A DNA stretch of 64,000 nt. Origin: Chthonomonas sp. Lineage in GTDB: Bacteria > Armatimonadota > Fimbriimonadia > Fimbriimonadales > Fimbriimonadaceae. The position numbers were made by a program, and so were the translations under genes. The notes beneath the pieces were generated by a model. The model ran no database searches, was not told the origin of the DNA, and worked only from the letters and a program-made list of their open reading frames with translations. Every line of letters begins with the position of its first letter. The first letter of the stretch is position 1. Below are positions 26,032 to 36,655 of the stretch, piece by piece. Location of the stretch: the NCBI GenBank assembly GCA_016788585.1, contig JAEURP010000002.1:62001-126000 (forward strand). Reading direction: 5' to 3'.

Positions 26032-27024
26032 TTACTTCTTCTTTCGCTTTCTGATAAGCAGACCGACGCCTGCCGCCAAAGCCGCCATGGTGCCGGGTTC
26101 TGGCGCGGTGATGATCGTCATGCTGCCAAGAGACGTAGTGTAGGGAAGGTCGATAGCTCCCTGACCCATATAGTTGATTCCTGGATCGTAGTAATTTACG
26201 CGATTAACGTAAGAGCCACTGTTGTTGTACACTTCGTGCAAGTAATTTCGGCTGTGGGACCATACGATATCGCCAGTCATCCCCGCACTGCTCCAGGAAC
26301 TCCACCCAACGGGGGTCGCCGCTTGAAAAGGTCCGTTCGCATGGGTCACGGCGGCGTACTGGACATTTCCGGTGATCAGAATACGGTTGCCGGACCGACC
26401 GATGGCTCGGAACCGACTCGCGTCCGAAGATGTACCCAACCCGGTAGCGCCAAGGTAAGTGCCCGAACTCGTGTAACAGAACGTGTAAAAAGTGGAAGTC
26501 CCCGCATTGGTGATCCGGTTGAGCGTGTAGATGTTTCCATCTGATCCCTGCACCGAGTCGAGCGCCCAGTAGGCGCCGCCAAATGGACTCATGTCAGCCA
26601 GTTGCGCGCCCGTCGTTCCGGAATAGATGCGCGAAACCTGTTCGAGGCCACCGCCGACATAACCAGCAATCAAGAAGTTGCCGTTATTTAGCACCTCGAA
26701 GCGCATGGGACCATTGCCATAGAAGGGGTTCACACCGACGCTGAGAGCCCCAAGGTAACGGCCGGTGAACGCGTTGAATCGTCGGATCGTGCCGTCGCCA
26801 TTAAGCGCGGCAACAACCCCATGATTCGTCGGATCGGCGGCAATTTGGGCACCACTGTAGGTTCCTAATTCTCCCGCGCCAAATGAACCCAATTGCACGC
26901 GATTCTCGGGGTCGTACCGCACGATGCGGTTGCCCTCGACAAACATCATCATCTCGAAGCTCGCTTGGGCAGCGCCGCCCACCGAGATCAAAATGCTCAT
27001 TGCTAGTACTTTTAAGTTGCTCAT
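26032..27024 (-). CDS. PEP-CTERM sorted surface protein
   Basis: A 330-aa exported protein. Signal peptide MSNLKVLAMSILISVGGAAQ, then a beta-propeller-like body (IVRYDPENRVQLGSF, GVVAALNGDGTIRRFNAFTG), and a C-terminal sorting signal: PEPGT, a 15-residue membrane stretch, and RKRKKK. Such tails are cut by an exosortase (not in the window). The frame is open up to 27102, but ATG 27024 gives a proper signal peptide. The cargo role is unknown. Confidence 0.85.
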   Translation of the reverse strand: MSNLKVLAMSILISVGGAAQASFEMMMFVEGNRIVRYDPENRVQLGSFGAGELGTYSGAQIAADPTNHGVVAALNGDGTIRRFNAFTGRYLGALSVGVNPFYGNGPMRFEVLNNGNFLIAGYVGGGLEQVSRIYSGTTGAQLADMSPFGGAYWALDSVQGSDGNIYTLNRITNAGTSTFYTFCYTSSGTYLGATGLGTSSDASRFRAIGRSGNRILITGNVQYAAVTHANGPFQAATPVGWSSWSSAGMTGDIVWSHSRNYLHEVYNNSGSYVNRVNYYDPGINYMGQGAIDLPYTTSLGSMTIITAPEPGTMAALAAGVGLLIRKRKKK

Positions 27025-27224
27025 GCTGGTGACTCGAATACCAGTATAAGGCATTTTTGCAGGAAAGGGCACCCATTTAACAGGCCCTAACAAAAAAAGC
27101 ATCGCAGCTAATGAATGGCCAAGGAGTTGTGACAGTATCGTGACGGCCTTGCTTCATTAAGCCCGTAAAGTTACTGGAAGCCCCGATTCATTACTTAGCC
27201 TCAGATAAAATCGGTGGAGTTCCT

Positions 27225-28571
27225 ATGCAGAAATTACTGGCCTTATCCTTACTAATTGGTGTCACCGCCGCCGCGAACGCGGGCTACACCCTCTTTGTCG
27301 CCGAAACGCAATCGGGTTCGCTGGGTGGAAATACCGCGGCCTACGGAGGACTTCAACGATACAACTTCACGATCGCTGGCGGCGCGGCCATGGCGGGAAC
27401 GGGCGTGGCGGCAGCTCAGCTCAGCGATCCCAGTGGCCTCTACTATGCCAACAATAAGCTCTACGTGGCGAACCGGCACGGCAACACATTGGGCCAGGGG
27501 AGCGTGAAGGCGTTCGACTGGGATGGAGCGAATCTTTCGGCCGTAGGTACGACGGTCGCGACCTCGACGAGTTCCAGTTACACCGGCTTCCACGGCCTCA
27601 CCGTTGCCAGCGATGGAAAGGTTTATGTGAGCACGGTGAACGGCGGTTCAAGGCAGTTCACGCCTCCGGGTAGTCCTTTTCCAGATACGGGCGGAACTTC
27701 ATTTTATGCCGCGCGCGAGGCGTGGATTTCCCCCAATGGCGCAGTGTTGATTGAGTCGGGAATCGGCGGTAGCGTCCGGGTTTCAGACGTCTCTGGCAAC
27801 ACGTTCTCGAACTACACCGATTTCGCGATCCCCGGAATCAGTGCTGTCCACCAATTGGCCTATCGAGATGGCGCCCTTTATTGCGCGGGCTTCAACTCTT
27901 GGACCGTGCATCGAATCAACCTCGATGCCAACTACAAGCCGGTGAGCTCGACGCAACTTTTTGGCCTGCAACAGGGAATTGGTGTTGGTTTCAGCCCCGA
28001 CGGCAATGAGATGTACGTCTCCGGCCATACGACGAACCGCATCAACCGTTACGTTGTGGGAGTTGACGGAAATTGGTATGGCAATGGTGTAATTGCGACG
28101 GGTCACAACATGGGCTATGTGGCGGTCATTCCAACCGGCACGCCCCAGCGCATCAGTGGCCGCATCGCGCTTGGCGGACTGGTTGGCACGATCCACAATT
28201 CGCCGATGACAGTAGAAGTTTGGAACGGCCCGACTCTGGTCCAAACCATCAATACAACCGTCGGTGCTGGCAGCACATTCGAAATCAACCCCAGCGAAAC
28301 CTCAGGAAACCGGACCTTGGTGTTTCAGACCCGCGCCGGACTTCGCAAAGCCGTCAACGTGACATTACAACCAACTCCGGTATCTGGCATGGTCGTAAAC
28401 ATGCTGAATGGCGACGTGGACCTTTCTGGCGAAGTGGACGCCGCTGACATTGATCTTGTGATTGCGAACTTCGGCGGGTCGAATACCCAAAGCGACGTCG
28501 ACGGCACCCAAGAGGTCGACGCCGCCGACATTGATCTGGTCATCGCTTACTTCGGGTCTGTCGGTGGCTAA
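27225..28571 (+). CDS. Secreted dockerin-tailed beta-propeller protein
   Basis: A 448-aa exported protein with signal peptide MQKLLALSLLIGVTAAANAG. The body resembles NHL or SMP-30-like propellers (SDPSGLYYANNKLYVANRHG, GFHGLTVASDGKVYVST, GVGFSPDGNEMYVSG), then a small regulatory-like beta domain (RISGRIALGGLVGTIHNSPM) as in neighbouring dockerin proteins, and two terminal calcium loops (GDVDLSGEVDAADID and SDVDGTQEVDAADID). A GGTGGAG ribosome site precedes the ATG, in contrast to the leaderless genes. Function unknown. Confidence 0.85.
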   Translation: MQKLLALSLLIGVTAAANAGYTLFVAETQSGSLGGNTAAYGGLQRYNFTIAGGAAMAGTGVAAAQLSDPSGLYYANNKLYVANRHGNTLGQGSVKAFDWDGANLSAVGTTVATSTSSSYTGFHGLTVASDGKVYVSTVNGGSRQFTPPGSPFPDTGGTSFYAAREAWISPNGAVLIESGIGGSVRVSDVSGNTFSNYTDFAIPGISAVHQLAYRDGALYCAGFNSWTVHRINLDANYKPVSSTQLFGLQQGIGVGFSPDGNEMYVSGHTTNRINRYVVGVDGNWYGNGVIATGHNMGYVAVIPTGTPQRISGRIALGGLVGTIHNSPMTVEVWNGPTLVQTINTTVGAGSTFEINPSETSGNRTLVFQTRAGLRKAVNVTLQPTPVSGMVVNMLNGDVDLSGEVDAADIDLVIANFGGSNTQSDVDGTQEVDAADIDLVIAYFGSVGG

Positions 28572-28599
28572 CGGGCTGGGTGGCCAGGGTGAGCTCCAC

Positions 28600-28852
28600 G
28601 TAGCACCCCTTACGGGGTGGCACTGGTGATGTGGCGCGATCATCTGTCATATGATCGCCGCTTAATGTCGCCATAGCACCAGTGTCTCGAAGGCACCGCA
28701 TTTTGGGGAAGGCGGCGGGCCGATTTGCCGTAGGGAGGAAGGATGTGGTGCCCAGTCACTGGTGTAAGGTCGAAACCAGTTTGCGCAGGAGGCACTCTTG
28801 CCGCGCCCTTTCACCAGTGCCACCCAACCGACTACCCCCGCTCGGGTTGGGT
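28600..28852. repeat. Repeat-rich spacer with CACTGGTG hairpins
   Basis: CACTGGTG occurs at 28621 and 28757 and its complement CACCAGTG at 28677 and 28812, forming nested hairpins; GGTGGCACTGGTGA (28617) pairs with TCACCAGTGCCACC (28811). An inner GCGATCAT/ATGATCGC pair lies near 28640. A separate hairpin ACCCAACC / GGTTGGGT (28822-28852) ends 14 nt before the next start. Confidence 0.75.
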
Positions 28853-28866
28853 AAAGGCGACTTTCG

Positions 28867-30276
28867 TTGTATAGTAATAGTGCATTGTTACGCACAATAT
28901 TTTTCGCGCTAGCAGCTGCTCTTGCGAGCCAAGCGCTAGCACAATGGACCGTCACCGAACTTTCGCCGGGTAGTAACACGACGGGGATGGCACTTGGCGC
29001 AAGTGGTAACCAACAGGCAGGCATCCTATCCTATCCTGGAGCGGTGAAGGCCGTCTTATGGAGTGGCTCCGCCAATTCGTGGGTCGATCTGGGGCCGCCT
29101 GTGGCCTCTGAATCCGGGCTCTCATCGGTCATACCAGGCTTCCAAGGGGGTTACGCGCGAATCAGCGGGGCAGATCACGCGGTCATGTGGACAGGTTGGC
29201 AGGGGAGTTGGGTTGATCTTCACCCGGCTGGGGCAATCCGGTCAAGCGTTACAGCAGTGTCTGCAACGAAGCAAGGCGGCTGGGCCGTCATTGACGGGCT
29301 TTCGATTGCTGGGCTGTGGAGTGGCTCGGCGGTCAGTTGGATACCATTGGCTACCACCAATTCTGCTGTACTGGGTATGGCTGGTGACGAGCAGGTGGGC
29401 TATACGGCGGACGGCGCGTGCTTGTGGCGTGGAAGTAGCGGAAGCCGGGTTGACTTGAATGGCACCGCCTCGTATTCGGTTGCCAATGGTACTGATGGCG
29501 TGACCCAGGTTGGCGGTTATCGGCAAGGCGGGAGTTTGACAATGGCGTGCATGTGGTCGGGAACGGCGGCTACAAGGCAAGGTCTCCATCCCCCCACTGC
29601 ATCGACCTCTGTGGCTCTGGCGGTCGCTGGTGAATGGCAATGCGGATACATGAACACAGATCGCGTCCGTGCGGTGGTATGGCGTGGGCCCTCGGTTCCG
29701 GAGACAGACTTGCACCAGTTCCTTCCGCAGCACTTTATCCGGTCATACGCAACAGGCATAGCCATACACAATGGAATTACTTACGTGACGGGTTATGGAG
29801 AGACGGTCGGCGGCTACCGCCCACTGCTCTGGCGGAACCCGGCCGTACCTACCCATGTTTCTGGGATCATTGGGCTGAATGACGTGGTCTGGAATCCAGC
29901 ATATCCAAGACCGATCACGATTCGAGTCACCCAAAACAACGTTACGCTTGGGACGAGAGTCGTATCGGTCGGGACGACAGGTGCCTTCGGATTCCAGGTG
30001 GGTGGCGCGGGCCAGGCAGTTGTTCTGGTCGACGGGCCCACCCAGTTGACGCGTCGCAAGAATATCTACCTGGATGGAAATCCGATTGACCTGGGGGTTA
30101 TCGTGCTCAATAACGGGGACTGCGACGGTTCCGGGGAAGTTGATGCCGCTGATATTGATGTCGTCATTGCCCAGTTCGGGAGCATGGGCGGTACTGGTGA
30201 CGTGGACTTGAGCGGAGAAGTCGACGCGGCGGATATTGACATCTGCATCGCCAACTTCGGCGCGGTTGGGGATTAG
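28867..30276 (+). CDS. Secreted HAF-repeat protein with dockerin-like tail
   Basis: An exported protein of up to 469 aa. Signal peptide ALLRTIFFALAAALASQALA, then repeated segments such as GASGNQQAGILSYPGAVKAV, VVWRGP and AVLWSGSANSWVDL, typical of the HAF extracellular repeat. A small regulatory-like beta domain follows (THVSGIIGLNDVVWNP) and then two calcium loops (GDCDGSGEVDAADID and GDVDLSGEVDAADID). The start is uncertain: TTG at 28867 or TTG at 28885; the second gives a shorter, cleaner signal peptide and lies 9 nt after TATAGT. Function unknown. Confidence 0.8.
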   Translation: MYSNSALLRTIFFALAAALASQALAQWTVTELSPGSNTTGMALGASGNQQAGILSYPGAVKAVLWSGSANSWVDLGPPVASESGLSSVIPGFQGGYARISGADHAVMWTGWQGSWVDLHPAGAIRSSVTAVSATKQGGWAVIDGLSIAGLWSGSAVSWIPLATTNSAVLGMAGDEQVGYTADGACLWRGSSGSRVDLNGTASYSVANGTDGVTQVGGYRQGGSLTMACMWSGTAATRQGLHPPTASTSVALAVAGEWQCGYMNTDRVRAVVWRGPSVPETDLHQFLPQHFIRSYATGIAIHNGITYVTGYGETVGGYRPLLWRNPAVPTHVSGIIGLNDVVWNPAYPRPITIRVTQNNVTLGTRVVSVGTTGAFGFQVGGAGQAVVLVDGPTQLTRRKNIYLDGNPIDLGVIVLNNGDCDGSGEVDAADIDVVIAQFGSMGGTGDVDLSGEVDAADIDICIANFGAVGD

Positions 30277-30510: not shown

Positions 30511-32061
30511 TTGTTGCCAACATGCCAAACTAGTTACTTGCTTAACTCGGCGGAGATCCTAGACAGATACCACGCACAAGCGCGCGGATGTGGCCTTACT
30601 CACCTCTCAGGTGTGTTCAACCTGATTGGAAATGACATCTCTGCGCTAAAGCTTGTTGAGGCAAAGCGGCAATTTCCGATTATCGTAACGGAGCCAAAGC
30701 ACTCGCGTGGAAAACCGGGGCACCTTAGAAATGCCCGCAGGTGGTTCACTTGGCTTCCATTCGATCTCTCACTTAAGTGGGCAGGCCTCTACGACCTGAT
30801 TTTTGGCGCAGCCGAGGACCACCTCAGGAAGGCATCCCCGACTCTTTTCCATCCAGCGTTCGACGCGCAGGGCAAGCTATTCAAGCCCTTATGGGCCGCA
30901 TACCAGCGCGAGCTGGCATTGAATCTAGCGGGTTACGCTCATTACCTCGTCGCTGACGTTGAGGAGTTTTATGCCAACGTAACACCCCTTACCATTGAGC
31001 AAGCATTCATGCGGGCTCAATGCCTTCCAGTGGTGGCCGAAACCGTGATCGAGGTCCTGAAGCAAATGCCCCATGGGCTTCCGATCGGCCACCCTACCTC
31101 AGAGTTGATAGCCGCAGTTATCCTCTCTGACCTAGCTTGCTGCCTCCAAGATACAGGCTTCACCGCTCGGATGTGGATGGACGACATGCTAATCGGGCTG
31201 GAGTCCAGCGATCACGATCAGGTCGCCAGCGCGTTGATCAACCAAAGCCTCAGCAGAGTCGGACTCCGGCTTAACGAGGCAAAGACGGCCGTATACGAGG
31301 AGCAACTTGGTTGGTTGATTCACATTGGCCCATTCACTGGTGTGGACCCGAGCCGGTTGTGCGCGGAACCTCCCTTGTCATCCTGGTATGAAATTGACCC
31401 TTTTGGAGACCAGCCTGTCCCTGTTACTCACGACTTACGAGGTTTTTTCGAAGCATACAATGCACCAGATGGACTGAGGGCACCGCTAATGGCGCAGGCT
31501 GCTAGCCCGGAGCGAAAGAACATAAGGATGTTAGTTCGTGAGTCGCCGGAGTTTCTCACAGACAAAGCCCGCGGGCGAATCTTCAGTGAGCGATTGTACG
31601 CAGCCTATGACGTGGCGAATTTGAACAGGATCAACGAGTTACTTCGGGCACTAGTAACTAATAGCCTTTCTAAATCACCGATTATTGAGGATCGGCTCTT
31701 TGCCCTTGAAAGGGCCCACCCACGGGTCCAGCGAAAGCTTGGCCTCAGGCTTCACTGGGAGGGACAACTGTCACCACCCTTGGCAACACGAGCATTGTTC
31801 GCGTTGCACCCGGATTCCCAACTCTATCCCGACTTAGTAGTCCGGTCCTGCAGCGAACACGCCTCCTTTGAGGAGAACCTAGCCGCTGCCATTGACGCGG
31901 AGTACGATGAGGGAGAGACGCGCAGATTCAAACGAGCAATGCTGATGCAAAGCGAATGCGGGTCCCTTTGTTGCGAGGTAGCCAAAGTGATCACCGCGAG
32001 CGGCGTGCGATCGAGCGGTGCCGATGATGAAGGCGGGGCAGACGACTCAACAGGATATTAA
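30511..32061 (+). CDS. Orphan reverse transcriptase, Abi/DRT-like
   Basis: A 516-aa RNA-directed DNA polymerase. Palm motifs: A, HYLVADVEEFYANV with Asp149; B, GLPIGHPTSELIA from residue 189; C, RMWMDDMLIG with Asp224-Asp225; D, GLRLNEAKTAVYEE from residue 251. All three catalytic aspartates are intact. The other 190 C-terminal residues are helix-rich and carry no maturase or endonuclease domain that I can see, so it is not a typical group II intron protein. Stand-alone RTs of this build include abortive-infection (AbiA/AbiK) and other defence RTs; the assignment is inferred. The TTG start is uncertain because no ATG is near the N-terminus, so 5' truncation is possible. No partner gene is evident. 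Confidence 0.82.
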   Translation: MLPTCQTSYLLNSAEILDRYHAQARGCGLTHLSGVFNLIGNDISALKLVEAKRQFPIIVTEPKHSRGKPGHLRNARRWFTWLPFDLSLKWAGLYDLIFGAAEDHLRKASPTLFHPAFDAQGKLFKPLWAAYQRELALNLAGYAHYLVADVEEFYANVTPLTIEQAFMRAQCLPVVAETVIEVLKQMPHGLPIGHPTSELIAAVILSDLACCLQDTGFTARMWMDDMLIGLESSDHDQVASALINQSLSRVGLRLNEAKTAVYEEQLGWLIHIGPFTGVDPSRLCAEPPLSSWYEIDPFGDQPVPVTHDLRGFFEAYNAPDGLRAPLMAQAASPERKNIRMLVRESPEFLTDKARGRIFSERLYAAYDVANLNRINELLRALVTNSLSKSPIIEDRLFALERAHPRVQRKLGLRLHWEGQLSPPLATRALFALHPDSQLYPDLVVRSCSEHASFEENLAAAIDAEYDEGETRRFKRAMLMQSECGSLCCEVAKVITASGVRSSGADDEGGADDSTGY

Positions 32062-32326: not shown

Positions 32327-32429
32327 CCTTTCTCGGCCCGTCAACGCAAGTGGGCTCCCTGGCAAATGGCGTTTGAAGTCTCAGATTTGGAGTTTGTCGC
32401 ACGCAAGGGCGGCGAGTGCTTTTCTAAGA

Positions 32430-32464
32430 CTCCCCCCTAACCCCCCTCGCAAGCGAGGGGGGAA
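32430..32464. repeat. Half-module of the palindromic coding element, intergenic
   Basis: CTCCCCCCTAACCCCCCTC followed by GCAAGCGAGGGGGG forms a hairpin upstream of the ATP-grasp gene. It is nearly identical to the right half of the insertion in aroC at 52527-52628. The spacer 32327-32429 shows nothing else. Confidence 0.8.
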
Positions 32465-32505: not shown

Positions 32506-33507
32506 ATGAAGAAAATTGGCGTATTGTTTGGACGTGAGAACACCTTCCCGTGGGCGCTGATCGAGCGCATTAACTCGAAGAAGATTAAGGGCATCGAGGC
32601 GGAGCCGGTTCTTATTGACAAGTGCCAACAGAACCAGCCCAGCGACTATGCCGTCGTGCTCGACCGCATTAGCCAAGACGTGCCTTTCTACCGCGCTTGG
32701 CTGAAGAATGCCGCCCTGAATGGCACCGCCGTTTGCAACAATCCTTTCTGGTGGAGCGCCGACGAGAAGTTCTTCAATAACTGCCTGGCCGAGCAAGTTG
32801 GCGTCGCGGTTCCGAAGACGGTTCTCTTGCCGAGCAACCAGCGTCCGCCGGATACCGAGCAGGACAGCTTTAGGAACCTCGCGCTGCCTTTGGCGTGGGA
32901 AGAGATGTTCGAGTACATCGGCTGGCCCGCGTTCTTTAAGCCCTTCGCAGGAGGCGGCTGGAGGAACGTTTACAAGCTGAACAACATGCACGAGTTCTTC
33001 CACGTTTACAACCAAACGGGGCAGCTCACCATGATGCTGCAGGAGAACATCGACTTCACCGATTACTTCCGCTGCTACTGCCTGGGGGGCGATAACGTGC
33101 ACGTGATGCGCTACGCCCCTCAGGAGCCGCATCACCGCCGGTACGTTCAGGAAGATATTCCGATCGATCCAAAGATGCACAAGCAGGTTGTGGACGGCGT
33201 GATCGCACTGAACCAGGCGCTGGGCTATGACTTCAACACGGTCGAATTCGCGTTCCGCGATGGCGTTCCGTACGCGATTGATTTCTGCAATCCAGCTCCA
33301 GACGCGGACATTTATAGTGTCGGCGAAAAGAACTTCGAGTGGATCATCGAAAACGCGGCTCAAATGCTGATCAAGAAGGCGCAGAACCACGTGGACGGTC
33401 AGATGAACCTGACGTGGGGAACGTTCGTTCAGAACTCCGTCGCGGGGAAAGGCATGGGCGCTGCTAAGAAGGCTCCGGCCAAGAAGAAGGTGCCGGCAAA
33501 GGCTTAA
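32506..33507 (+). CDS. ATP-grasp ligase (RimK-like), first gene of amidoligase operon
   Basis: A 333-aa ATP-grasp protein. N-terminal preATP-grasp fold (MKKIGVLFGRENTFPWALIE), ATP-binding lysine segment WPAFFKPFAGGGWRNVYKL at about residue 145, and magnesium-binding end VEFAFRDGVPYAIDFCNPAPD at about 245 with E and N ligands. It should join a carboxylate to an amine through an acyl phosphate. The last 20 or so residues (AAKKAPAKKKVPAKA) are a histone-H1-like Lys/Ala/Pro tail, unusual for the family. TACAAT at 32482 and an AAGGA ribosome site precede the ATG. Three related genes follow. Confidence 0.87.
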   Translation: MKKIGVLFGRENTFPWALIERINSKKIKGIEAEPVLIDKCQQNQPSDYAVVLDRISQDVPFYRAWLKNAALNGTAVCNNPFWWSADEKFFNNCLAEQVGVAVPKTVLLPSNQRPPDTEQDSFRNLALPLAWEEMFEYIGWPAFFKPFAGGGWRNVYKLNNMHEFFHVYNQTGQLTMMLQENIDFTDYFRCYCLGGDNVHVMRYAPQEPHHRRYVQEDIPIDPKMHKQVVDGVIALNQALGYDFNTVEFAFRDGVPYAIDFCNPAPDADIYSVGEKNFEWIIENAAQMLIKKAQNHVDGQMNLTWGTFVQNSVAGKGMGAAKKAPAKKKVPAKA

Positions 33508-33555
33508 GAGAATCGGTGGCCCAACGAAGCGCCCCCTTCCTGAGGAGAGATTGAC

Positions 33556-34707
33556 ATGGTGGAGAAACTAAGGAAGAAGGGCTTCTTTTCGCTGGGCATC
33601 GAGGAAGAATTCCAGATCGTTGACCCGAACACGCGGGAGCTTCGATCGCACATTGAGGAGGTTCTGGAGCAAGACAACATCGTGCTGCGCGAGAGCGCGC
33701 GGCGCGAGATGCACCAGAGCGTCGTCGAGACCGGCACCGGCATCTGCAAAGACATCCAAGACGCGCGCAAGGAAGTGACGTCCCTGCGAACCGAACTTGC
33801 GAGAGTCGCGGCGTTCAAAGGCATGACCATCGCGGCGGCGGGCACCCACCCGATGAGCCACTGGCACGACCAGGACATCACCGACCACGAACGGTATGAG
33901 GTCTTGGTCGAAGAACTGAAGAATGTTGCGCGCAAAAACTTGATCTTTGGCCTGCACGTGCACGTGGGCTTTCCGGATCGGGAAGCCGCGATTCACGTGA
34001 TCAACGCGGCGAGCTACTTCGTGCCGCACCTCTTGGCCTTAAGTTGCAATTCGCCATTCTGGGTTGGGCAAGACAGCGGCTGGTCGAGCTATCGAGTGAA
34101 GGTGTTCGAGAGCTTCCCACGTACGGGTTTACCACAGCACTTCCATAGCCTCAGCGAATACGAGGACTATGTAAAGCTTCTCGTCAAGCTGAATTGCATT
34201 GACAACCCCAAGAAGATTTGGTGGGATATTCGCCTGCACCCGACCTTCGACACGATCGAGTTCCGCATGTGCGATGTGCAACAGCGCGTCGATGAGACGT
34301 TGGCTTTGACCGCGATGATTCAGGCTCTGGTCGCCAAATTATATAGGTTGCATCAGTCAAACATGACGTTCCGAATCTATCGGCGCATGATGACGGACGA
34401 GAACCGCTTCCGCGCCGCGCGCTATGGAACGGAAGGGAAGTTGATCGACTTTGCGAAGAGAGAGGAAGTGGAGTTCACTTCACTGTTCGAAGAGCTCTAC
34501 GAATTTGTAAAGGACGATGCCGAAGAACTGGGAACTACCGAGGAGCTTAATTATCTGCGCACGATGATTAAGGAAGGCAATGGCGCGATTCGCCAACGCC
34601 GAGCATTCGAGAAAACCAAGACCCTGGAAGGCGTGATCGATAGTATCATCGCAGACACGCATCTTGGGCTTGGCGTGTCCGCGCCAAAGGTGAGCGCGAA
34701 GGCGTGA
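33556..34707 (+). CDS. Carboxylate-amine ligase, glutamate-cysteine ligase 2 (YbdK) family
   Basis: A 383-aa enzyme of the glutamine-synthetase-like GCS2 family. The N-terminal GIEEEFQIVDPNTREL carries the metal-binding glutamates, with FGLHVHVGFPDREAA at about residue 133 and IWWDIRLHPTFDTIEFRMCD at about 217. The family joins glutamate or another acid to an amine, using ATP. AGGAGAG lies before the ATG at 33556. It sits 48 nt after the ATP-grasp gene, and its stop overlaps the amidotransferase GTG by 4 nt. Substrates unknown. Confidence 0.92.
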   Translation: MVEKLRKKGFFSLGIEEEFQIVDPNTRELRSHIEEVLEQDNIVLRESARREMHQSVVETGTGICKDIQDARKEVTSLRTELARVAAFKGMTIAAAGTHPMSHWHDQDITDHERYEVLVEELKNVARKNLIFGLHVHVGFPDREAAIHVINAASYFVPHLLALSCNSPFWVGQDSGWSSYRVKVFESFPRTGLPQHFHSLSEYEDYVKLLVKLNCIDNPKKIWWDIRLHPTFDTIEFRMCDVQQRVDETLALTAMIQALVAKLYRLHQSNMTFRIYRRMMTDENRFRAARYGTEGKLIDFAKREEVEFTSLFEELYEFVKDDAEELGTTEELNYLRTMIKEGNGAIRQRRAFEKTKTLEGVIDSIIADTHLGLGVSAPKVSAKA

Positions 34708-35486
34708 GGCTCGCGATCCTCGATCAGTATTGCGGGCATGTCAATCAGGGCATGCGTTGCATTGAGCAGATCGCGAAAGACGCGGGCCTAGAGATTGACC
34801 ACTACGATGTGCGCGGCAAAAACGAGATTCCAAAGGCCAAGGACTACCGCCTATTCTTGAGCACCGGCGGCCCCGGCGATCCGCACGAGGTCGAGCACAT
34901 GGAATGGGGCAAGCCATGGGGCTGCTTTCTCGAAGAGCTTCTTGAACTGAACAAAGGCGACGAGAAGCGCCACGCGTTTCTGATTTGCCACAGCTATCAA
35001 ATGGCTTGCATTCATTGGGGCCTCGCCGAGGTGACGCAACGCCGGAAGCCAGCCTTTGGGATCTATCCTATGCACAAGACCGAGGCAGGGAAGACCGACC
35101 CTGTTTTGGAGGGCTTGCCAGATCCGTTTTGGGTCATTGATTCTCGTGATTGGCAGGTGGTTCAACCGCATGTGAAGGCGATGGACCGATTTGGCGTGAA
35201 AGCTCTCGCGATCGAACGGGACCGACCCCATGTGAAGCTCCAGCGAGCGGCCATGGCGATCCGGTTTTCGCCAGAAATTGTTGGCACGCAATTCCACCCC
35301 GAAGCTGATGATTCAAGCATGCAAGCTTACATCGATGATCCAAAGATGGTCGAGCAACTCGCTGGGAAGCACGGGCTGGACCGAATCGAAAAGATCAAAG
35401 AAAACCTCGGCGACTTGATGAAGGTGCAATTCACCCGCCAGCATCTTTTGCCAAACTTCCTCAAGGACGCGCTCAACAAAATCTAA
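34704..35486 (+). CDS. Class I glutamine amidotransferase-like protein
   Basis: A 260-aa GATase1 domain. The nucleophile-elbow cysteine is in FLICHSYQMACIHWG at about residue 98, and the His-Glu pair in VGTQFHPEADDSSM at about 197. The STGGPGDPHE loop matches the oxyanion region of GMP-synthase-type amidotransferases. It would either release ammonia from glutamine for its operon partners or hydrolyse a gamma-glutamyl bond. GTG start within the stop of the GCS2 gene; 2 nt separate it from the next gene. Confidence 0.9.
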   Translation: MRLAILDQYCGHVNQGMRCIEQIAKDAGLEIDHYDVRGKNEIPKAKDYRLFLSTGGPGDPHEVEHMEWGKPWGCFLEELLELNKGDEKRHAFLICHSYQMACIHWGLAEVTQRRKPAFGIYPMHKTEAGKTDPVLEGLPDPFWVIDSRDWQVVQPHVKAMDRFGVKALAIERDRPHVKLQRAAMAIRFSPEIVGTQFHPEADDSSMQAYIDDPKMVEQLAGKHGLDRIEKIKENLGDLMKVQFTRQHLLPNFLKDALNKI

Positions 35487-35488
35487 CC

Positions 35489-36655
35489 ATGGACCCGGTT
35501 CTACGCGCGGATTTTAAGCAACGATGGTCGGACGATAAGTACGAACCGCTGGTCGCGGCGGTCAACGATCCGTACAAGTGGAAAGCCGAGTTTCGCATCT
35601 GCGAGACTCCAATATTTTTCACCGAAGAGTGGTCGCGCATTCTTCAAGAAGCCGGCGACCAGATACTGAAGCAAATCCAGACTCCTGAGTTTGAAAAGCA
35701 CGCCCGTACGGCGATCCCTAAGGGCGAGGCAGTGCCGCACCCCAAGCCGCATCCAGCGTTTGTACAGATCGATTTCGCCGTCGCCGAGGAGCACGGGCAA
35801 TTGGTGCCTAAGCTCATCGAACTTCAAGGCTTCGCGAGCATGTTCTGCTACCAAGTCGCGCTCGACCGAGCCTATCGCAAGCTCGACCTCGTACCCGAGA
35901 ACACTTCGCAGTACTGGAGCGGCCTCAATGAAGCAAGCTACCTTGATCACTTGCGCAAGATCGTCATTGGCGACCTCGACAAAGATGATTTGGTGCTTCT
36001 CGAGATAGAACCCGAGAAGCAGCGCACGAAGATTGATTTCGCCTGCACCGAAGAGATGCTCGGCATTCGCACTCTCTGCTTGACCGACCTAAGAAAGGAC
36101 GGCCGAACACTGCGCGATCCCAACGGCAGGCAGATCAAGCGCATCTACAACCGAGTGATTTTTGACGAGCTTGGTCAGAAGAACCTTAACCTTGACTTTC
36201 ACCCAACCGATGACGTGGATGTTGATTGGGTCGCACACCCCAACTGGTTCCACAAGCTTAGCAAGCATACGTTACCTTTCTTGAAAGGCGACGCGATTCC
36301 CGAGTGCCACTTCGTGAGCGATCTCAAGGAGATTCCGAAAGACCTCAAGAACTATGTGCTCAAGCCGCTTTATTCCTTTGCTGGCGCGGGCGTGATTGTG
36401 GACGTTACTAAGAAGGCAATTGAGAGTCTCGAGCACCCCGAGGTCTATCTTCTCCAACGAAAGGTGAAGTACGCCAACTTCATCGAAACCCCCACCGGAC
36501 GGAGCAAGGCCGAAGTGCGCCTGATGTACTTCTGGAACCGCACGCCAATCCTGGCGAACACATTAGTTCGTGTCAGCAGAGGCAACCTAAGCAGCGTGAG
36601 TAAGAACACCGACGACACCTGGATCGGCGCCACAACCGGTTACCATCGAATCTAG
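35489..36655 (+). CDS. Divergent ATP-grasp-like protein, last gene of amidoligase operon
   Basis: A 388-aa protein. The C-terminal half looks ATP-grasp: the lysine and glycine-rich loop KNYVLKPLYSFAGAGVIVDV at about residue 285, then YLLQRKVKYANF, and the metal-binding end AEVRLMYFW...ANTLVRVSRGNLSSVSKN. The N-terminal half (KWKAEFRICETPIFFTEEW, FVQIDFAVAEEHGQLVPKLIELQGF) is unlike common ligases and may bind the amino-acid or peptide substrate. It starts 2 nt after the amidotransferase stop. I infer a second ligation step in the same pathway. Confidence 0.78.
   Translation: MDPVLRADFKQRWSDDKYEPLVAAVNDPYKWKAEFRICETPIFFTEEWSRILQEAGDQILKQIQTPEFEKHARTAIPKGEAVPHPKPHPAFVQIDFAVAEEHGQLVPKLIELQGFASMFCYQVALDRAYRKLDLVPENTSQYWSGLNEASYLDHLRKIVIGDLDKDDLVLLEIEPEKQRTKIDFACTEEMLGIRTLCLTDLRKDGRTLRDPNGRQIKRIYNRVIFDELGQKNLNLDFHPTDDVDVDWVAHPNWFHKLSKHTLPFLKGDAIPECHFVSDLKEIPKDLKNYVLKPLYSFAGAGVIVDVTKKAIESLEHPEVYLLQRKVKYANFIETPTGRSKAEVRLMYFWNRTPILANTLVRVSRGNLSSVSKNTDDTWIGATTGYHRI

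Follow-up and report, generated by a model that had tools for sequence, protein, structure and literature searches.

What do four closely packed amide-ligase-like genes make in a bacterium of the phylum Armatimonadota? The question is raised by positions 32506-36655 of a 64,000-nucleotide stretch (hereafter the window) of contig JAEURP010000002.1 from Chthonomonas sp. Four open reading frames (ORFs) lie there on the forward strand: gene A (32506-33507, 333 aa), encoding a RimK/LysX/ArgX-like ATP-grasp ligase; gene B (33556-34707, 383 aa), encoding a GCS2 (YbdK-type) carboxylate-amine ligase; gene C (34704-35486, 260 aa, GTG start), encoding a class I glutamine-amidotransferase-like protein; and gene D (35489-36655, 388 aa), encoding a circularly permuted ATP-grasp ligase with the glutathione-synthetase/glutathionylspermidine-synthetase fold. 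The ORF coordinates agree with the intergenic gaps of 48, -4 and 2 nt given in an earlier note on this DNA, the GTG start of C overlapping the stop codon of B. That note had also stated that the operon has no known product, and we likewise could not assign it to a known pathway. We lean towards the view that the four are the linked members of a pathway with six or more genes, which works without the ribosome or nonribosomal peptide synthetases (NRPSs) and leads to a small, glutamate-containing, intracellular pseudopeptide of gamma-glutamyl type, capped by an amine.

The same genes recur jointly in at least four bacterial phyla. Using a profile of D against a bacterial and archaeal genome collection, we found at least 575 relatives and fetched the best 80 loci; since a single query selected these 80 as its top matches, the counts of loci given here describe that set, not frequencies. 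The 80 loci belong to Bacteroidota, Ignavibacteriota, Verrucomicrobiota and candidate division KSB1. In 22 of them the order is E4-A-B-C-D, where E4 is a gene for a small alpha/beta hydrolase, usually found 5′ of A. Other arrangements are E4-A-B-D, A-B-M29-D, A-C-D, C-D and D alone. The A-B-C-D order was found in Bacteroidota and Ignavibacteriota, and in Verrucomicrobiota with an M29-type aminopeptidase gene replacing C. Conservation of the gene order, on which the earlier note had made its reading depend, thus extends to tens of genomes of other phyla, with E4 added and with no fusions between member genes in the fetched loci. Gaps between neighbouring members are mostly <100 nt. Among the conserved neighbours seen in the 80 loci there was neither a transporter nor a precursor peptide; the earlier note had reported the same absence for the operon itself, and it is plausible that the putative product is intracellular. 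In an alignment of E4 homologues, two of them (L056:4161-4886 and L067:4143-4865) have the presumed nucleophile Ser replaced; some lineages may therefore have an E4 without catalytic activity.

Strong evidence that A, B, D, E4 and one further gene, G6, belong to one pathway comes from the fact that they stay co-present in genomes after their dispersal. G6 encodes a third ATP-grasp protein, L-amino-acid-ligase-like, which was first met as a divergent neighbour in flavobacteria and resembles the L-amino acid ligase 4wd3 (E=8e-26). In an even set of 151 genomes of Armatimonadota, D is present in five. The same five carry B, at E <1e-130, and A, for which one more genome gives a weaker match; G6 occurs in exactly these five, and E4 gives strong matches in them and weaker paralogues in four others. 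The genes are scattered in three of the five carriers, with for example B beside M29, E4 beside G6 and D alone, and one of these three genomes has G6, E4 and A clustered. Among 198 genomes of Bacteroidia, D was found in 28, A in 29 and both in 27, the two being unlinked in 6 of the 27. That the four genes of the window are adjacent by chance and come from separate pathways might be read from their dispersal in the three armatimonadotal genomes, but is scarcely credible, as the dispersed genes are still co-present in the same genomes and the order is conserved in other phyla. In the genome of the window both E4 (G000:C19:36048-36755) and G6 (G000:C16:57126-58307) are found away from the operon, on other contigs, and the pathway would therefore comprise at least six genes. 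The set of four proposed earlier was right as a linked operon, yet incomplete, as E4 and G6 are co-inherited with it on other contigs. Convergent beside the unlinked E4 of this genome is a gene (L137:8774-9619) whose product, judged by eye, is an M55 D-aminopeptidase-like protein; in the sister genome no such gene was seen beside E4.

The protein families of A and B indicate what kind of bond could be made. The AlphaFold model of A (pLDDT 84.8) has a RimK-type ATP-grasp fold, and its nearest structures are RimK, ArgX and LysX at Z about 21 (21.3 to RimK and ArgX, with LysX tied within 1 Z unit). In sequence, however, its match to the RimK-family model TIGR00768 in the NCBIfam scan is weak (E=5e-5, 22.8 bits) and far under the cut-off of 143.4 bits, and an RpsF- or LysW-like partner gene was not noticed in the operons. 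Identity of A to homologues beyond the genus is 56-66%. Membership of A in the R2K clade was rejected, the Pfam score for R2K_2 being 16.5 bits against a cut-off of 26.2 bits. B is a full-length member of GCS2, the family to which the earlier note had assigned it (PF04107, E=5e-65, residues 13-291). It scores 505 bits against PRK13515 / NF010039 in NCBIfam and matches the YbdK structures 1r8g/1tt4 at E about 1e-64, and G14, E16, E17 and E18 of its GxExE metal/ATP motif are invariant in the homologue alignment. What sets B apart from the YbdK-type carboxylate-amine ligases is its co-inheritance here with A, D and G6. Two tandem copies of B stand ahead of an M29-D pair in a Spartobacteria genome (L017:1463-3901).

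Given these families, A and B might modify a protein or peptide tag in the style of RimK or of PafA/Pup, with no free metabolite. The structural neighbours nearest to A, RimK and LysX/ArgX, act on a protein C-terminus, and GCS2 is related to the Pup ligase (PMC2588565). We nevertheless consider such tagging quite unlikely, as the tightly spaced operons hold neither a carrier protein nor a small ORF that is conserved, and D and G6 resemble small-molecule ligases.

D matches nothing in Pfam (threshold E 0.1) or in NCBIfam, and sequence comparison did not place it in the YgiC family. Its predicted structure does so by fold, and confirms the earlier suggestion that D is a divergent ATP-grasp protein. 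The AlphaFold model, for which the input was 48 sequences (mean pLDDT 94.3), aligns with YgiC over 343 residues at Z 25.6 and a root-mean-square deviation of 3.6, followed by glutathionylspermidine synthetase (Z 25.0), human GSS (Z 23.9) and Cp1B (Z 23.7), and a Foldseek search matched it to the eukaryotic-type glutathione synthetase 1m0w (E=6e-14). By hhalign, the similarity of D to YgiC is significant only locally, at the ATP site, where the two have a segment in common (VVKPIFSREGANVSI / VLKPLYSFAGAGVIV). D therefore resembles the E. coli proteins YgiC/YjfC and glutathionylspermidine synthetase in overall fold and in the ATP-site segment, but differs from them in its low identity (~14% in structural alignments), its lack of a Pfam match and its changed signature residues. 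The circularly permuted ATP-grasp fold is also that of eukaryotic-type glutathione/homoglutathione synthetase and of Cp1B from E-64 biosynthesis. YgiC and YjfC are reported to be peptide-spermidine ligases, and Cp1B ligates epoxysuccinate to an amino acid, so that the fold also makes amides on non-amino-acid acids (PMC12568646). D retains Asp95 and Glu111, which are putative metal ligands, and the ATP-site residues Lys259 and Lys292, but does not carry the R-x-D ... E-x-N active-site signature. Cp1B needs R139 and N165 to be fully active (PMC12568646); D has no direct counterpart of either, and the operon context of Cp1B is another one. Because the residues equivalent to those needed in Cp1B are replaced, D is to be regarded as a divergent branch and not to be named a glutathione or glutathionylspermidine synthetase. 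Directly 3′ of D in three Dyadobacter loci (L049, L053 and L070) is a gene that by eye appears class III aminotransferase-like (family c13), possibly a hint of an amine substrate.

The fold of D bears on a second alternative, in which the product is a glutathione-like low-molecular-weight thiol: B, being a GCS2 member, would make gamma-Glu-Cys, and A or D would finish the molecule, D having the fold of 1m0w. We find this doubtful. A GshB-type domain was not reported in A or D by Pfam or NCBIfam, the rest of the genome not having been searched for GshB; D is without the R-x-D and E-x-N residues; and three ATP-grasp ligases exceed the need of glutathione synthesis. In addition, PMC6282198 presents bacillithiol derivatives as the most widespread bacterial thiols. 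As the operon lacks a GshB-type domain and has ligases to spare, the genes do not fit standard glutathione synthesis, which the earlier note had named as an example of a known pathway that they might belong to.

C was also correctly assigned to its family in the earlier note. It matches PF00117 (GATase I) with E=5e-7 and 30.0 bits against a cut-off of 22.8 bits, its triad of Cys95, His198 and Glu200 is invariant in 30 homologues, and the alignment shows a GGPG oxyanion-type motif. Two residues after the catalytic Cys the alignment has Ser, where most amidotransferases have Gly. The slot of C is taken in 8 loci by the M29-type aminopeptidase (PF02073, E=2e-16); among the 80 D loci, C is present in 44 and the two occur together in none. 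In five loci the gene directly 5′ of C encodes an M42 aminopeptidase, and in Flavobacteriaceae there are M17 aminopeptidases nearby. Because an aminopeptidase replaces it in the same slot, C could act by hydrolysis and not by donating ammonia; the replacement speaks for a peptidase-like function no less than for ammonia supply.

The same peptidases can be read the other way, with C as a true ammonia donor, an amide-capped osmolyte like N-acetylglutaminylglutamine amide (NAGGN) as the product, and the M29, M42 and M17 peptidases degrading it. This account is possible, although not one we favour. It draws on the intact Cys-His-Glu triad and GGPG motif of C, on the Pfam scan, which reported no match of C to PF07722 (gamma-glutamyl hydrolase), and on the M42 genes adjoining C; the NAGGN operon (asnO-ngg-peptidase) likewise combines amide ligase, amidotransferase and glutamyl aminopeptidase (PMC8070244). 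However, the present operon has a class I and not an asparagine-synthase-type amidotransferase, and it has no GNAT/ATP-grasp fusion. The NAGGN models TIGR03103/3104/3106 are not among the NCBIfam matches of A-D, and TIGR03106 is far under its cut-off for the M42 neighbours in other genomes. Nor is C essential, since other lineages have an aminopeptidase in its slot and many loci are without it.

From the gene identities, folds, order and co-inheritance, the intact catalytic residues and the mutual exclusion of C and M29 within loci, we infer a single common product, the pseudopeptide favoured here, with the following substrates and order of steps and with a hydrolytic role for C. B would activate the gamma-carboxylate of glutamate and link it to an amine or amino acid. 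A, as a RimK/LysX-type ATP-grasp ligase, would then attach further amino acid units, aided by G6, and D would close the molecule by joining a carboxylate of the intermediate to an amine. C, acting as a thiol hydrolase or an amidotransferase, would trim, recycle or amidate the product, a job that the M29 metallo-aminopeptidase would take over in other lineages, and E4 would serve as an accessory alpha/beta hydrolase. To us it is finely balanced whether A, B, D, G6 and E4, together with C or M29, combine glutamate, at least one amino acid and an amine into a small metabolite not yet described, for example a cofactor, an osmolyte or a redox compound. The earlier suggestion that the four genes synthesize a small peptide, thiol or amide-capped metabolite holds in so far as the amidoligase operon is conserved, but was incomplete in lacking E4 and G6, and its C component is replaceable by M29.

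Several points weigh against the pseudopeptide pathway. The hypergeometric probabilities for the co-occurrence of D with A, 1e-8 in the phylum and 8e-30 in Bacteroidia, take no account of common ancestry, and when counted by genus the sample of the phylum contains only three lineages with D. The exclusion of C and M29 was counted inside loci, 9 of the 80 loci have A and B with neither of the two, and C could supply ammonia instead of hydrolysing. In the 48 sequences of D, position 93, the Arg of R-x-D, is mostly Gln or Ala, with Arg never among those listed, and at position 113 Gln invariably stands in place of the Asn of E-x-N; because these two residues, conserved in the characterised relatives, are replaced, D may differ from them in its chemistry or substrate.

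As to where the operon came from, the tree of D sets the window's genus apart from the rest of its phylum and places it on the side of Bacteroidota, Ignavibacteriota and Opitutaceae, with two changes forced by supported branches among the selected rows. Because this tree separates the genus from its own phylum, the operon was likely transferred into it, as far as the D sequences indicate, and the same placement contradicts simple vertical descent inside the phylum. The genus has C, not M29, beside B.

In the window, A-D look like a single transcription unit, because a GC-rich hairpin lies 5′ of them and the gene 3′ of D is on the opposite strand. This hairpin (32441-32462), which has a nine-pair stem and ends 43 bp 5′ of gene A, is one of two terminator-like hairpins at 32392-32462, which are possibly a dispersed repeat. 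They stand between gene A and a stand-alone reverse transcriptase ORF just 5′ of the operon (30511-32061, forward strand, 516 aa). The top PADLOC match of this ORF is Drt8 (E=2e-15), with many other models of defence-associated (DRT) and retron reverse transcriptases ranking lower, and it could be a defence-type reverse transcriptase. Three secreted-looking proteins are encoded at 26032-30276: one on the reverse strand (26032-27102) has a PEP-CTERM-like end, and two on the forward strand (27225-28571 and 28867-30276) end in dockerin-like repeats (GDVDLSGEVDAADID). Two origins for the operon itself were rejected: a defence origin, A, C and D being without a PADLOC match, and a mobile origin, D and A being without a plasmid match.

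NRPS-independent clusters of amide ligases are a known kind, and the genes studied here seem to form a variant of it that has not been characterised. No description of the set was found in open papers, the 2009 amidoligase survey not being among those compared. That survey, by Iyer, Aravind and colleagues, reportedly covers operons joining ATP-grasp and GCS2-like ligases with unrelated peptidases, and may already include the present set. D would extend the glutathione-synthetase fold by a divergent branch, and the pathway would make functions assignable to proteins that have no family or only generic ligase names. The marker gene D is present in about one in seven of the sampled Bacteroidia and in members of several other phyla, which points to a common metabolite that has apparently never been named. 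If our reading is true, many free-living members of the Bacteroidota, Ignavibacteriota and Verrucomicrobiota, along with a few Armatimonadota, would use a metabolite that is as yet undescribed.

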